A stretch of 33,823 bases of DNA, from positions 1 to 33,823 of the forward strand of contig NZ_WIQM01000002.1 in NCBI RefSeq assembly GCF_015732185.1, in the 5' to 3' direction. Made by a program: the position numbers and the translations under genes. The notes under the pieces are model-generated. The model made no database searches. It was not told the DNA's origin and worked only from the letters and a program-made list of their open reading frames with translations. Source of the DNA: Pectinatus haikarae (GTDB lineage Bacteria > Bacillota > Negativicutes > Selenomonadales > Selenomonadaceae). This document shows, one piece after another, positions 2,633 through 20,828 of this stretch; positions within the stretch are counted from its first letter, which is position 1; each line of letters begins with the position of its first letter.

Positions 2633-3875
2633 ATGGCTAGACAAAGAAGACTTTTCCCAGAACGTAAAGAATTTCTCCAAAAACTGCTGAGTGCATATCA
2701 ACCGGAAGATGCGCAGGGTGTTCAGAAACATGTTCAAGGACCTTCTCGGAGATACGCTGCAAACCATGCTGGAGACTGAGATGGATGATCATCTTGGTTA
2801 CTCCAAATACGACTATAAAAACAAGGATACGGATGATAGTCGGAACGGTTATAGCAAGAAAACCGTGACGTCTACGATGGGGAATATTCCTCTCGACATT
2901 CCTCGTGATCGGAAAGGTGAGTTCCATCCGCAGGCTATGAAGAAGAATCAGACGGACGTTTCCAATATTGAGGACCAAGTATTGTCCATGTATGCCAAGG
3001 GGATGACCACCCGGGATATCACTGCTCATCTTAAAGAAATCTATGGCGTGGATGCTTCTGCTGAAATGATTTCCCGCATGACAGAGCGTATTCTCCCGAT
3101 TGCTAAACAATGGCAGAACAGACCGCTGGCCAAGAAATACGCAATTGTCTTCATGGATGCTGTCCATTTTCATGTCAGACAGGATTCTCAGGTTGTAAAG
3201 AAGGCGGTCTATATCGCCATTGGAACTCGTCTGGATGGTTCCCGTGAGGTCCTTGGCCTTTGGATTGGCGGCAACGAAAGTGCAAAATACTGGGTTGGCG
3301 TCCTGAACGAAATCAGGAACCGGGGAACGGAAGATATTTTTATTATCTCCGTTGACGGTTTGACCGGATTTGCCGATGCCATTGGCGCAGTTTATCCTGA
3401 GGCAGAAGTACAACGCTGCATAGTCCACCAGATCCGTTATACGACCAAATTCGTCTATTACAAAGACATGAAACCATTTGTCCAAGATCTGAGGGAAATT
3501 TACCAGGCGCCCACTCTGGAACAAGCAGAGGTGGCCCTAGACGCCTTGGAAGAAAAATGGAACGATAAATATCCCTCTTCGGTTCAGTCATGGCGAAATA
3601 ACTGGCCGCAGCTATCCACTTACTTCAAATACCCATTGGAAATGAGAAAGATGATTTATACGACGAACCAGATTAAAAATTTCAATCGTCAGTTACGGAA
3701 AGTCTCTAAGAGCCGGACGATTTTTCCTACAGATGATTCCTTATTTAAGCTGCTCTATCTGGCGACCATAGAGATCACCAAGAAGTGGAGCGGCCGCAAC
3801 CGTGACTGGAATAAAATTATTTCCCAGCTTTGCATTTATTTCGATAACCGTATCGAACCAGCTGATTTGGAATAA
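2633..3875 (+). pseudogene. IS256-family (Mutator-type) transposase with N-terminal frameshift
   Basis: The natural start is ATG 2633 after an AGGAGG at 2619-2624, giving MARQRRLFPERKEFLQKLLS...QGVQ. After the CAG at 2723-2725 an extra A in AAAC (2726-2728) shifts the frame; family-like sequence (NMFKDLLGDTLQTMLETEMDDHLGY) continues one base later and runs open to 3875. Corrected, the protein would be about 413 residues, normal for the family. DDE-type residues: the first Asp is in VFMDAVHF and the second in ISVDGLTG. The third, expected as Glu in the TTN-x-IE-x-x-N motif, is Lys (codon AAA at 3675-3677, TTNQIKNFNRQLR), seven residues before the conserved Arg. An internal start at GTG 2691 would yield a 394-residue product, so a protein may still be made. 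Confidence 0.85.
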
Positions 3876-16500: not shown

Positions 16501-17097
16501 CTATTTCACTTTTTCTTTTTCATAAATTTGCACAATCATATCTACTGCTCCTCTGCCGATTGACAACATACGGCTTATCTCCTCCGCAGACATGCCTTTA
16601 TCAAGCAAAACATGCACTTTTTTCACCTTTTCTGACATAACATGTTTACTTTCCGTCTGCCTATATACTTTTTTATCAACTGCAATTGATTGACTGTCTT
16701 CATTGGAAAAAACGTCTATTCGTCCTCCATACCTGCTTTCTGAAACAGAATTCAATAGATCATCAAAATCTGCTGCATTTGATGCGTTTTCTGTGGTTGC
16801 CATTCGCAAAGAAGTTTTATTTTCTTCCTCCGCAAAAATTGCACAATAACGCCTTAATTCTTCAGTCTTTTTATCAGCAGTATCTATCATTTTCTCCAGA
16901 CGATCCAGCTGCTCATTTATTTGTTTGGAAATTCTGTTTCCTGTGTTCTCCAACTCTTTTTTCAGTTGCTGCGCAGCCTGGGCAATACCTTCTTCTGTAT
17001 CATCAGCAATATCTTTTTTATTATTGCCGCTATGCTTAAGCAATAATATAAGCAAAACGCCTACAATGATTATTACTCCTAATATTTCAGTAAACAT
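16501..17097 (-). CDS. Membrane-anchored coiled-coil/HTH protein in the swrB position (DUF6115-like)
   Basis: This 198-residue protein has one N-terminal membrane helix (about residues 5-20, ILGVIIIVGVLLILLL) and a cytoplasmic coiled coil (about 35-95, with LKKELENTGNRISKQINEQL). A low-complexity linker follows, then a C-terminal helix-turn-helix-like end (about 155-195, LLDKGMSAEEISRMLSIGRG). The same architecture and position after sigma-28 occur for SwrB (YlxL) of Bacillus, which promotes flagellar export-gate assembly and swarming, and for DUF6115 proteins. I judge it a functional analogue by position and layout, not by clear sequence identity. It is the last gene of the operon, 19 bases after the 110-residue gene. 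Confidence 0.6.
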   Translation of the reverse strand: MFTEILGVIIIVGVLLILLLKHSGNNKKDIADDTEEGIAQAAQQLKKELENTGNRISKQINEQLDRLEKMIDTADKKTEELRRYCAIFAEEENKTSLRMATTENASNAADFDDLLNSVSESRYGGRIDVFSNEDSQSIAVDKKVYRQTESKHVMSEKVKKVHVLLDKGMSAEEISRMLSIGRGAVDMIVQIYEKEKVK

Positions 17098-17116: not shown

Positions 17117-17449
17117 TTATAACTTGATATCTATATTATGTCCTCGCACCGCATCGGTCAAAACTTCATTTTCATCCTGAACTGCTTCCGCCGGATCATT
17201 TTTGCGTCTGTTTGAAGTGCCGCTGCCATCACCACCGCTTTTTCCCTGTTGGTCATTCCTGATCTTACCGCCCTCAGCTTTTTCTTTCGCATAGACCTGC
17301 ATCTGTTTTTTTTCTGATTCCTGCTGGAGTTTTTCGTTACCGAAATTCTGCGCAGTAGCCACCTGATGATTCATTTTATTTTGCATATTCCCGACTTCTG
17401 AACTGTTTGGCAGCATAGCTTGTAAATTACCAATCGGATTAACAGACAT
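17117..17449 (-). CDS. Uncharacterised 110-residue flagellar-operon protein
   Basis: I do not recognise this gene. The product is soluble, with no signal peptide or membrane segment, and is rich in Gln, Asn and Lys. The middle (ESEKKQMQVYAKEKAEGGKI) is highly charged and probably helical, followed by a Gly/Ser-rich disordered stretch (GKSGGDGSGTS) and the C-terminal end RGHNIDIKL. It sits 22 bases after fapA and 19 bases before the swrB-like gene, all on the same strand. Codon use is like the neighbours, and ATG 17449 follows GAGGGAG. The position suggests a small motility accessory protein; that is inference. Confidence 0.6.
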   Translation of the reverse strand: MSVNPIGNLQAMLPNSSEVGNMQNKMNHQVATAQNFGNEKLQQESEKKQMQVYAKEKAEGGKIRNDQQGKSGGDGSGTSNRRKNDPAEAVQDENEVLTDAVRGHNIDIKL

Positions 17450-17471: not shown

Positions 17472-19076
17472 TCAATAAGGATTCAACCTTACACATTCCT
17501 TCTCAACATCCGCTGAAAAAGAACAGTGCTGTGCTTCTGTCTGAACAGTATAAAGAAATTTCGCCACTATAATTTTAACACCAGGGTTCACTTTATCAGA
17601 CACTCTTATTTTAGCATTATCCATACTTTTCAATTGTCCCGAAATTTCTTTTAATTCGGCTTCTTCTCTTTCCAGCTTCCCTGCCAGAGGAAACTGCATT
17701 CTCTTCAGCTTAGCAAATTTTTCCTGCCGCTCTGCAGACAATTTCTCGTCTGTGCCTAGCATATTTAAAGCATTCTTAATATTCTTTAATTGTTTTTTAT
17801 CATTTCCTATACTGTCAGTTATAAGCCTATACTTTTTATTGATAATCGGATTGACTCCCACTTCAACTTTTGTAACTATATCCATAAAGTTCCCTAAAAT
17901 TTTAACATCTATCAGCACACCTGCCGTAGAATGTCCGCCTACAATTTGCCCTCTCCGGTCCTTTATAATTATTTTGCGCCCGGCATTTATCTCTGAATGT
18001 AAAGCTACATCAGCTATATATATATCTCTTTCGGCAGTAATATCCGCATTTTCAATAAAATTGGTGCGTATGTCTTCCCTGGCATATATCTTACCGCGGC
18101 GCATACCTAAAATACCGCCTTCTATATAAATATTCCTGGCTTCAACAGTACCTCCGCTCACAGTGCCGCCGATATTGACATCACCGTCAGCCCTGACAGC
18201 GAAACCATCTTGAACATTTCCCTTAATAAAGACGCTGCCGTTAAAATTTATGTTACCAGTAGATACATCTACATCACTGCTTATCTCTAGCTTGGGATCA
18301 ACAGTAATACGGTTGCCCTCTTCAATAGCCTGTCCGTCTATAGCCGCAATAAGCAGATTCTCATCTATGATTTCCGTATTTTTTCCCTTAGCAAGAGGAA
18401 TCGGCTTGCCCGGCCGGCAGATAATTTCCTGTCCCATAATATTCATGCCATTTTCGCCTTTTGTCTGCGGTATCCGTTCTGCCAGAGGATCCCCTTTAGC
18501 TACGAGAAAACATAAATTCATATCTTTATAGTTTACTTTACCATAATTTCCGCTGCTTGGCCTACCTTTTTGGGAAAAATCAATATACTTTTTTATATAA
18601 GCATTTTCACCATTTTTCGCAATTTTTCCTTGGGCAATCACTTGGCTGCACGAGGGAACTTTCACAAATTCATCTATAAGTGCTTCGTCTATACCATAGG
18701 TTATATTTTTATCCGCCAAAAGCTCCATGATATAATCTCTATCATACTGAAATTCGCCGTCATCACCTGAAAAACTTATAACAGCCTCCATCTTATCCTT
18801 GCTTATATCTATTACTGGCACAGGGATGACTTTCTCCTGTGCTGCCTCTGGTGCAACAATTTCACTTCGCACGCCCGAATGTTCTTGGATAGTTTTTAAT
18901 AAATCCGTAATTTTATAATTCTTTATCCCATGTTTTTTTAAAAGAGCACATAATAATGTAACATCTTTAAAAAAAGGGCTGTTTTCTTTTGGTACATAGA
19001 TAGTCAGAAAAACGCCCTCAGATAAAATTTCAAGCAAGAATCCTTCTTTTTCACTGCCAAATACAATGTCTGACAC
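17472..19076 (-). CDS. FapA family protein (DUF342), flagellar assembly protein A
   Basis: This 534-residue protein belongs to the DUF342/FapA family, which is common in flagellated Clostridia, Negativicutes and Vibrio. The N-terminal half carries the family core (PLAERIPQTKGENGMNIMGQ). The middle is a right-handed beta-helix-like repeat region (about residues 265-400), rich in Gly/Ile/Asp turns such as GSVFIKGNVQDGF, ADGDVNIGGTV and ARNIYIEGGI. A coiled coil (about 430-490) precedes the C-terminus. The start is GTG 19076, supported by GGAGG. In Vibrio FapA affects polar targeting of an accessory protein and glucose-linked control of flagella; the role here is not known. It follows fliA by 82 bases. 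Confidence 0.85.
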   Translation of the reverse strand: MSDIVFGSEKEGFLLEILSEGVFLTIYVPKENSPFFKDVTLLCALLKKHGIKNYKITDLLKTIQEHSGVRSEIVAPEAAQEKVIPVPVIDISKDKMEAVISFSGDDGEFQYDRDYIMELLADKNITYGIDEALIDEFVKVPSCSQVIAQGKIAKNGENAYIKKYIDFSQKGRPSSGNYGKVNYKDMNLCFLVAKGDPLAERIPQTKGENGMNIMGQEIICRPGKPIPLAKGKNTEIIDENLLIAAIDGQAIEEGNRITVDPKLEISSDVDVSTGNINFNGSVFIKGNVQDGFAVRADGDVNIGGTVSGGTVEARNIYIEGGILGMRRGKIYAREDIRTNFIENADITAERDIYIADVALHSEINAGRKIIIKDRRGQIVGGHSTAGVLIDVKILGNFMDIVTKVEVGVNPIINKKYRLITDSIGNDKKQLKNIKNALNMLGTDEKLSAERQEKFAKLKRMQFPLAGKLEREEAELKEISGQLKSMDNAKIRVSDKVNPGVKIIVAKFLYTVQTEAQHCSFSADVEKECVRLNPY

Positions 19077-19158: not shown

Positions 19159-19917
19159 TTAAAAAAAATCTGACTTAGATCTCGCCAGATATCCTCTCAG
19201 CCTAAGAACAGCTCTCTTATGCAGCTGGCTTATACGGGCTTCTGATAAATTCAGCGTCAGTCCAATTTCCTTCAAAGTCAATTCTTCCGAATAATACAGT
19301 GATATGATCAGCTTTTCCTTAGGCGCCAATTTATTAATAGCCTCTGTCAGTTTTTGTTTAATAAATTCACGATTAAGGCTTTTGTCCAAATCACTGCCTT
19401 GACTAACCGCATATTCTGCACTTATATAGTCTTCAAGTGACACCAGAGATGCTGTACTCATATTAGATTCCAAGCTATATAATTCGTCAAGGCTGACTGA
19501 CAAAGATTCGGCTAGTTCATTTTTAGTTGGTACCCGTTCCAGTTTAGCTTCCAGTTTCGTGTACACAGTCTCATATGTCTTGATTTTTTTCCGCAATGAC
19601 ACCGAAAGCCAATCTTTGGATCGCAGATAATCAAGAACAGACCCACGAATACGACTTCTTGCATAAGTTTCAAACTTTATTCCCAAATTGATATCAAACC
19701 TTGCTATAGCGTCCATTAAGCCGAAAAAACCACTGCTTATCAAATCATCGCGTTCAATATGAGACGGCAGATTATATGAAATATGACCCACTACAATATT
19801 CACCAATGCCAAATAATTTTCAATCAGATTATTTCGGGCAGCCATATCATTATTTTCTTTATATTTTTTCCATAAATCGGCTATATCGGTGGCAGAAAAG
19901 GATTTAGCTATTTGCAA
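19159..19917 (-). CDS. fliA: Flagellar RNA polymerase sigma factor, FliA/SigD/WhiG family
   Basis: This 252-residue sigma-28 factor directs RNA polymerase to late flagellar and chemotaxis promoters. Region 2 is clear (ENYLALVNIVVGHISYNLPS, then DLISSGFFGLMDAIARFD and FETYARSRIRGSVLDYLRS). Region 3 (ESLSVSLDEL) and region 4 with its helix-turn-helix (LTLKEIGLTLNLSEARISQLHKRAV) follow. The start is TTG 19917, supported by AAGGGGG at 19926-19932; no ATG gives a comparable N-terminus. It follows cheD across 425 bases that hold a broken small gene, and precedes fapA, matching the Bacillus cheC-cheD-sigD order. No anti-sigma FlgM gene is visible in the window. Confidence 0.93.
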   Translation of the reverse strand: MQIAKSFSATDIADLWKKYKENNDMAARNNLIENYLALVNIVVGHISYNLPSHIERDDLISSGFFGLMDAIARFDINLGIKFETYARSRIRGSVLDYLRSKDWLSVSLRKKIKTYETVYTKLEAKLERVPTKNELAESLSVSLDELYSLESNMSTASLVSLEDYISAEYAVSQGSDLDKSLNREFIKQKLTEAINKLAPKEKLIISLYYSEELTLKEIGLTLNLSEARISQLHKRAVLRLRGYLARSKSDFF

Positions 19918-20004: not shown

Positions 20005-20330
20005 TCATTTAATATTAATTGTCTTTTGAGCATCATTGTTCGGCAAAACACTTTGCTTTTCCTGCTCTTGTCCAAAAAACTTTTCTGTTATTTTTTTAGA
20101 AGCTCTTAAAGAGCGAACTCATCAGCAATAATATTAAAAAATTTGACAGTAATACCGTTATGAACATAAAACACATTCTTCTAAAAATCTGATAAATCCT
20201 TTATCGTATCGGCCACCATAATATTCAATGCCGATATACATCCTAAAAAAATGAATAGAATAAACACCTGCAGACATTTTTTTCTAAAAGCCCGCACCCA
20301 TATTATTCTGATGTCCATTATATCCATCAT
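20005..20330 (-). pseudogene. Small two-helix membrane protein gene, apparently broken by two +1 frameshifts
   Basis: The first frame starts at ATG 20330, eight bases after AGGTGA, and reads MMDIMDIRIIWVRAFRKKC, then LQVFILFIFLGCISALNIMV and ADTIKDLSDF before TAG at 20181-20183 (49 residues, one membrane helix). Family-like continuation appears in the +1 frame after the five-T run (RRMCFMFITVLLSNFLILLL MSS, a second helix). A second +1 switch near the TTT of CTCTTTAAG leads to RASKKITEKFFGQEQEKQSV to a TGA at 20005-20007. Removing one T from each run gives one protein of about 107 residues with two helices and a charged tail. Either the gene is decayed or only the 49-residue protein is made; sequencing error in T runs is also possible. 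It lies between cheD and fliA on the same strand. Confidence 0.5.
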
Positions 20331-20342
20331 ATCAATCACCTG

Positions 20343-20828
20343 TTAAATGGTTTTTTCACCCTTATTGATAGTCCTTATTTTATAAAGTCCTGTAGTCAGA
20401 TCCATTTCTACAGTACGACCATATGTACCGCCCAGGTCCTCACTAGCAATCTTTATACCGCATTTTTGCAAGGTTTTTTTAGCTAATTCTGCATTTCTTT
20501 TTCCGATCGCCATAATGTCCGATGCGCCGGCAAATTGGAACATTTGTGATCCACCGGCCATCTTAGCCTCTATTCTGGACTTAACAGCACCCAGCGCGAT
20601 AACTTCCTTCAACAATAAAGGAATACCCGTATCCGCAAATTTGGCGGGATTTTCATTGGCGCGGGCTTGTGTACTATCAGGCAGCATAATATGCACCAAC
20701 CCGCCAACTTTGCTTTTCGCATCATATAATGTGATTCCTATACATGACCCTAATCCGTAACTGATAATCGTAGCAGGTGATTTACCAACTTTATAATCAG
20801 CTATACCGACCTTTAACAATTCAGCCAT
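20343..20828 (-). CDS. cheD: Chemoreceptor glutamine deamidase CheD
   Basis: CheD deamidates glutamines of chemoreceptors and, when bound by CheC, is taken away from them as part of adaptation. The 161-residue protein has the papain-like catalytic pair: Cys29 in GLGSCIGI and His46 in GGLVHIMLP, with a Ser/Thr-rich strand before them. FAGASDIMAIGKRN and EDLGGTYGRTVEMD complete the family pattern. The ATG follows the cheC stop by one base, so the pair is translationally coupled, as their protein interaction would favour. Confidence 0.95.
   Translation of the reverse strand: MAELLKVGIADYKVGKSPATIISYGLGSCIGITLYDAKSKVGGLVHIMLPDSTQARANENPAKFADTGIPLLLKEVIALGAVKSRIEAKMAGGSQMFQFAGASDIMAIGKRNAELAKKTLQKCGIKIASEDLGGTYGRTVEMDLTTGLYKIRTINKGEKTI

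Follow-up and report, generated by a model that had tools for sequence, protein, structure and literature searches.

Our analysis indicates that the gap between cheD and the sigma-28 gene fliA of Pectinatus haikarae most likely (probability roughly 0.87) holds a broken flgV, which mutation has disabled in a Pectinatus species still carrying its flagellar genes. The case looks like ordinary gene loss and points neither to a new gene nor to a frameshift mechanism. The window analysed is the whole stretch of 33,823 nucleotides at positions 1 to 33,823 of contig NZ_WIQM01000002.1 (assembly GCF_015732185.1), and the features discussed here are collected in Table 1.

Reading frames and lesions in the cheD-fliA gap

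The genes around the gap follow each other on the minus strand in the order a presumed cheW, cheC, cheD, gap, fliA, an ORF that we take to be FapA-like given its position, an ORF of 110 codons and the gene for a DUF6115 protein. The reading frames of cheD and fliA are uninterrupted, and in the FliA protein sigma-70 region 3 of Pfam scored just below its cut-off. The 110-codon ORF gave no match in a Pfam scan and occupies the position where FlgV operons reportedly carry YjfB. A transposase-like ORF, named by eye, lies near the contig end at window positions 2691-3875. The species is represented by one assembly (G000; 3.1 Mb, 17 contigs, 99.6% complete), which carries flagellin and FliF genes.

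Table 1. Features of the P. haikarae window in and around the cheD-fliA gap.
Feature	Position	Strand	Basis
cheD, intact	20343..20828	minus	directly upstream of slot; Pfam CheD, E 2.2e-36
AGGTGA, likely ribosome-binding site for the ATG at 20330	20336..20341	minus	sequence; role inferred from spacing
Probable flgV remnant (type-1 FlgV), three frames in series	20005..20330	minus	profile, alignment, literature
Piece 1: N-terminus and membrane helix 1; stop TAG 20183-20181	20181..20330	minus	A2 match 20330-20148 (E 5.4e-17)
Lesion 1: junction of inferred 8-base deletion	20188..20189	minus	alignment with P. cerevisiiphilus
Piece 2: membrane helix 2, second frame; stop TAA 20098-20096	20096..20188	minus	A2 match 20194-20105 (E 4.4e-6)
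Piece 3: charged tail, third frame; stop TGA 20007-20005	20005..20109	minus	sequence
fliA (sigma-28), intact, TTG start	19159..19917	minus	sigma-70 regions 2 and 4, both above the Pfam cut-off
Presumed FapA-like gene, sigma-28 sub-module	17472..19076	minus	ORF
110-codon ORF	17117-17449	minus	between FapA-like and DUF6115 genes
DUF6115 protein gene, sigma-28 sub-module	16501..17097	minus	Pfam DUF6115, 1.4e-06

In agreement with an earlier note on this DNA, the cheD stop codon (TAA, 20345-20343) is followed by a ribosome-binding site-like AGGTGA and an ATG, and three minus-strand frames in series encode a first helix, a second helix and a charged tail. Counted from a GTG start at 20339, piece 1 comprises 52 codons. 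Both membrane helices are encoded, in different frames, and piece 2 has kept the helix-2 arginine of the family (IFRRM). A profile built from the three intact slot genes of other Pectinatus, with P. haikarae left out (A2), matched pieces 1 and 2 and, with E values up to 0.001 allowed, nothing else in the 3.1 Mb of the genome; these matches rule out chance ORFs as the source of the three-frame series. The A2 profile did not match piece 3, for which the support lies in its end (NNDAQKTINIK-stop versus NNNAGKADNIK-stop in P. cerevisiiphilus).

The way in which the frame was broken differs from what the earlier note had assumed, namely two +1 frameshifts with one extra T in each of two T runs. Dropping these Ts restores the frame on paper; comparison with P. 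cerevisiiphilus shows losses of 8 and of net 5 bases instead. In a DNA alignment with the nearest named relative, P. cerevisiiphilus DSM 20467 (FliA 83% identical), the same landmarks enclose 25 bases in P. haikarae and 33 in P. cerevisiiphilus, and the 8 missing bases sit immediately before a T5 run. They would amount to one ATTT repeat plus spacer, and the deletion probably took place between two ATTT repeats. From lesion 1 to the tail stop, P. haikarae has 184 bases compared with 189 in P. cerevisiiphilus, a net difference of -5, and as judged from this alignment lesion 2 is a net 5-base loss somewhere between 20188 and the tail stop. Together the two losses would have split the flgV frame, so that at most a 52-residue one-helix fragment would be produced, from which no FlgV ring is expected.

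The slot gene in Pectinatus, Selenomonadaceae and other lineages

Five Pectinatus genomes, P. haikarae included, were compared. Intact genes, with lengths of 112, 121 and 127 codons, were found in the cheD-fliA gap of three of the four others (G001, G004 and G003, which is P. cerevisiiphilus). This supports the earlier proposal of a motility-linked gene whose product is a small membrane protein with two helices. The earlier note had also reasoned that this proposal would fall if relatives had no open frame there or if the similarity were confined to the first 49 codons; the relatives do have the frame, and the similarity extends further. In the fourth genome (G002) the slot gap measures only 106 nt and the gene is gone, with no A1 (see below) or A2 match anywhere in the genome at E up to 0.001, for which a separate loss of flgV is the best reading.

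The A1 profile, built from 23 slot proteins, was matched in 101 of 121 Selenomonadaceae genomes, and FliA, called at E up to 1e-40, was present in 109. All 101 A1 best matches occurred in FliA-positive genomes (Fisher P 1e-11), with none in the 12 FliA-negative genomes, and every one of them was located on the fliA contig at a distance of 303-1170 bases from fliA (lowest coordinates compared) and was free of internal stops. The eight FliA-positive genomes without an A1 match comprise two with the divergent Pectinatus form (G001 and G004), three in which a two-helix ORF was seen by eye in the slot (G075, G101 and G136), one with an 84-nt gap in an assembly that is 79% complete (G005), G002 with its lost gene and P. 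haikarae with its broken one. The A1 profile itself finds one of the three intact Pectinatus copies, weakly (E 6.3e-4). Overall, a two-helix protein precedes fliA in 106 of the 109 FliA-positive Selenomonadaceae, and the copy of P. haikarae is the sole broken one seen.

In a collection of 111 fliA loci, cheD was recognised in 86, two being those of P. haikarae itself. In 80 of the other 84 cheD-fliA loci the slot contains a same-strand ORF that is 60 or more codons long and encodes a membrane helix, with two helices in 78 of the 80, a count that is biased upward by the picking of slot ORFs, which favoured longer ORFs with more helices. Duplicate slot proteins in this set are L003/L032, since P. 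cerevisiiphilus was counted twice, and L011/L038. The four loci without a slot ORF (L005, L018, L080 and L089) have gaps of 106, 84, 19 and 72 nt. Two slot proteins from two Selenomonadaceae genera (L015, 331 codons; L019, 321 codons) have a long acidic N-terminal extension ahead of the two helices. Among the 25 fliA loci without a recognised cheD, of which L067 was left unjudged, eight have a two-helix protein with a tail before fliA, namely the spirochaete records L071, L097, L100 and L101, the Fibrobacter-labelled L087 and L093, and L106 and L068. L061 carries the second half of a two-helix slot protein at a contig edge, and no slot protein was seen in the other 15.

Profile comparison by hhalign gave probabilities of 95, 97, 94 and 95% for A1 against the Pectinatus, Clostridia, Peptococcaceae and spirochaete sets, respectively, the match with the profile of four spirochaete slot proteins having an E of 4e-8. 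Since hydrophobic hairpins can match through composition alone, a decoy test was run with 16 hairpins cut solely from membrane proteins of the P. haikarae window. The 63 slot proteins tested outside A1 all scored higher than the best decoy (22.7 to 208.8 versus at most 18.6), L038 among them being identical to the A1 member L011, and L003 and L032 to each other. This test, a fairer measure than the count of two-helix ORFs, took in six of the eight slot proteins from loci without cheD, with L097 and L068 left out. At the weak end, single sequences reached hhalign probabilities of 15% (L093) and 17% (L075), and the claim of homology there leans on the slot position.

Correspondence to type-1 FlgV

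FlgV type 1, the family of Borrelia BB0268, has been described as a basal-body ring protein, with the ring located at the junction of the MS and C rings (Zamba-Campero et al., 2024; PMC11607428). According to the type-1 description it forms a two-helix hairpin in the inner membrane, the second helix carrying an arginine, and has a polar, disordered cytoplasmic tail that ends in a short conserved peptide in many lineages. The gene is reported to lie always in the flagellar superoperon, together with sigma-28, FapA, YjfB and a membrane/helix-turn-helix protein, and to occur mainly in Spirochaetes and Firmicutes, B. subtilis being given as lacking it (PMC11607428). The slot gene matches type-1 FlgV in its anatomy, its context and its relation to unnamed spirochaete slot proteins, with the named BB0268, HP1033b and C. 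jejuni FlgV lying outside the comparison. Two membrane helices, the helix-2 arginine, the disordered polar tail and the neighbourhood of sigma-28, FapA (presumed in P. haikarae) and membrane/helix-turn-helix genes are common to both (PMC11607428). A new family is ruled out by this match, and the gene is therefore not undescribed, as the earlier note had called it; nor is its suggestion of a lineage-specific protein supported, as FlgV has been reported from Firmicutes, Spirochaetes and others.

Two helices were found in intact Pectinatus and Selenomonad copies by hydropathy and AlphaFold. The models place them at residues 2-24 and 29-56 in a Selenomonas-type member (block means mostly >90) and at residues 4-41 and 48-95 in the P. 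cerevisiiphilus slot protein (pLDDT about 80), and the tails appear disordered, with pLDDT <50 at residues 79-108 and 89-104, respectively. The helix-2 arginine is invariant in 28 of 28 rows of one alignment (A5) and 24 of 24 rows of another (A7). Nine residues before it, P. cerevisiiphilus and G001 have D or E, as do many rows of A7; G004 has N there, and several other rows show H, Q, G or A. In P. haikarae the D at this position falls in piece 1 and the arginine itself in piece 2. Where type-1 FlgV has a conserved polar residue towards the end of its second helix, many Selenomonad rows have E, and Pectinatus shows no clear counterpart. The superoperon context is represented by fliA directly after the slot, with the FapA-like, 110-codon and DUF6115 ORFs next.

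The locus differs from type-1 FlgV loci in the chemotaxis genes that separate the flhF-flhG region from the slot in P. haikarae, in the broken P. haikarae copy and in the intact Pectinatus copies, none of which (0 of 3) has the conserved C-terminal peptide that is also missing from P. haikarae. A loose F-x-[PL]-[LFMA] motif near the C-terminus was present in 51 of the 80 slot proteins, two of these cases being false, as in L003 and its duplicate L032 the motif falls within helix 2, while slot proteins of other lineages have different endings or none visible. The peptide is not universal, and since it is absent or different in much of the slot set it is of no use here for telling members from non-members. 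FlgV types 2 and 3 of the Campylobacterota are likewise two-helix motor ring proteins, encoded between flhG and fliA (104-118 residues in H. pylori and C. jejuni; PMC10655999), but are described as being without the helix-2 arginine (PMC11607428) that the slot proteins here have.

The idea that the slot protein docks sigma-28 itself was considered earlier and dropped in light of the FlgV papers. SwrB of B. subtilis, whose gene is said to lie near sigD, is also a small membrane protein. However, P. haikarae has a separate DUF6115 gene, which we take to be SwrB-like, and the slot gene is therefore not SwrB. SwrB has been called monotopic (PMC4526659).

Age of the break, alternative readings and consequences

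At the DNA level, pieces 1 and 2 share 76-86% identity with P. cerevisiiphilus, as do the coding flanks, and the tail shares 51-59%. Because pieces 1 and 2 are still as similar as coding flanks, the break in flgV is probably young relative to the split from P. cerevisiiphilus. Of the three fates that the earlier note had offered for the gene, recent loss is the supported one, with its recency deduced from this similarity. Five of the 20 residues that are invariant in the three intact copies are changed in piece 1 (K16R, W19C, S26F, V37I and G41D); in CheD and FliA together, 10 of 286 columns of this kind are changed (P 0.0014), which leaves an excess in piece 1 that is qualified by the fast evolution of FlgV in general. 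A lineage comparison for extra change gave 6:3 versus 10:10 in CheD and FliA, which is not significant (P 0.45).

The unchanged residues of piece 1 have codons identical to those of P. cerevisiiphilus in 24 of 27 cases where 13.8 were expected (P 5e-5), a higher share than in cheD and fliA; over six species pairs, this test gave P values of 5e-5, 0.009, 0.010, 0.019, 0.43 and 0.45, uncorrected for multiple tests. The synonymous difference from P. cerevisiiphilus is 0.27 at 20330-20187, compared with 0.74 and 0.70 in cheD and fliA. Close to the junction of cheD and flgV there may be a constraint on the DNA itself, and the excess of identical codons could be a sign that something in piece 1 is still under selection. 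A promoter scan found 3 promoters versus 3.7 expected from shuffles, and the RNA fold of piece 1 had a z of -1.8, with 12 of 200 shuffles equally stable. Separately, the fliA leader and first codons (19961-19903) are 97% identical to P. cerevisiiphilus, the top 60-column identity in the aligned 5.2 kb except for one window with only 7 aligned bases; by eye, this part aligns poorly with other Pectinatus.

The codon excess would also fit a gene that works in pieces, with the 52-residue helix-1 fragment, perhaps together with a re-initiated helix-2 peptide, keeping some FlgV function. The start region is intact, and an ATG of the second frame is found at 20176-20174, four bases after the TAG. However, the tail frame contains no ATG or GTG and a single TTG, 13 codons from its end, conserved residues of piece 1 are changed, no such interruption occurs in the 101 family matches, and the sister species G002 has no gene at all, which together make continued function in pieces unlikely.

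The lesions being length losses of 8 and 5 bases, slippage and homopolymer error are both improbable explanations. Programmed slippage at T runs, by which the earlier note had thought one protein might still be expressed, could draw on the T5 run at the first junction; yet P. cerevisiiphilus and G004 share this run and have one open frame there, the T run at the second junction is, as aligned, shorter in P. haikarae than in P. cerevisiiphilus, and the -8 and -5 differences explain the frame changes, so that this mechanism is barely credible. An intact gene hidden by sequencing or assembly errors might be considered with a single assembly of the species, but it is very improbable, given that homopolymer errors do not typically produce an 8-base deletion or a net loss of 5 bases, that the assembly is nearly complete in few contigs, and that no other interrupted flagellar frame, be it of export, sigma-28 or chemotaxis genes, was noticed by eye in the ORF lists of the window.

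With flgV broken in this way, P. haikarae would make no functional FlgV and, like the G002 species, would still build flagella without it. Loss of flgV leads to fewer and shorter filaments in Borrelia (PMC11607428) and to fewer flagella and poorer motility in Helicobacter (PMC10655999). No published flgV loss in Pectinatus was found in the open-access literature searched, and the words Negativicutes, Pectinatus and pseudogene are absent from the main text of PMC11607428. Firmicutes FlgV was described there in 2024 from genome context, and no test of its role in Firmicutes was seen in the literature consulted.

The practical gain is the annotation of flgV. As none of 13 slot proteins scored above the curated cut-off of any Pfam or NCBIfam model, the gene is easily left hypothetical; a search of solved structures gave a best E of 0.26. 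Hypothetical genes are marked in a figure of Eubacterium and Roseburia motility loci (PMC3720852). For the genus, we tentatively consider, at somewhat less than even odds, a stepwise loss in Pectinatus that still have flagellar genes, in which the docking peptide was lost in the genus ancestor and later one species had the gene deleted and another had it broken. The frequent lack of the C-terminal peptide across the slot set weakens the idea that peptide loss led to gene loss; if the stepwise loss is true, Pectinatus would offer a natural comparison for the role of the FlgV tail. Since the slot gene accompanies fliA in nearly all FliA-positive Selenomonadaceae, species without the gene but with flagellin and FliF represent natural knock-outs of flgV.
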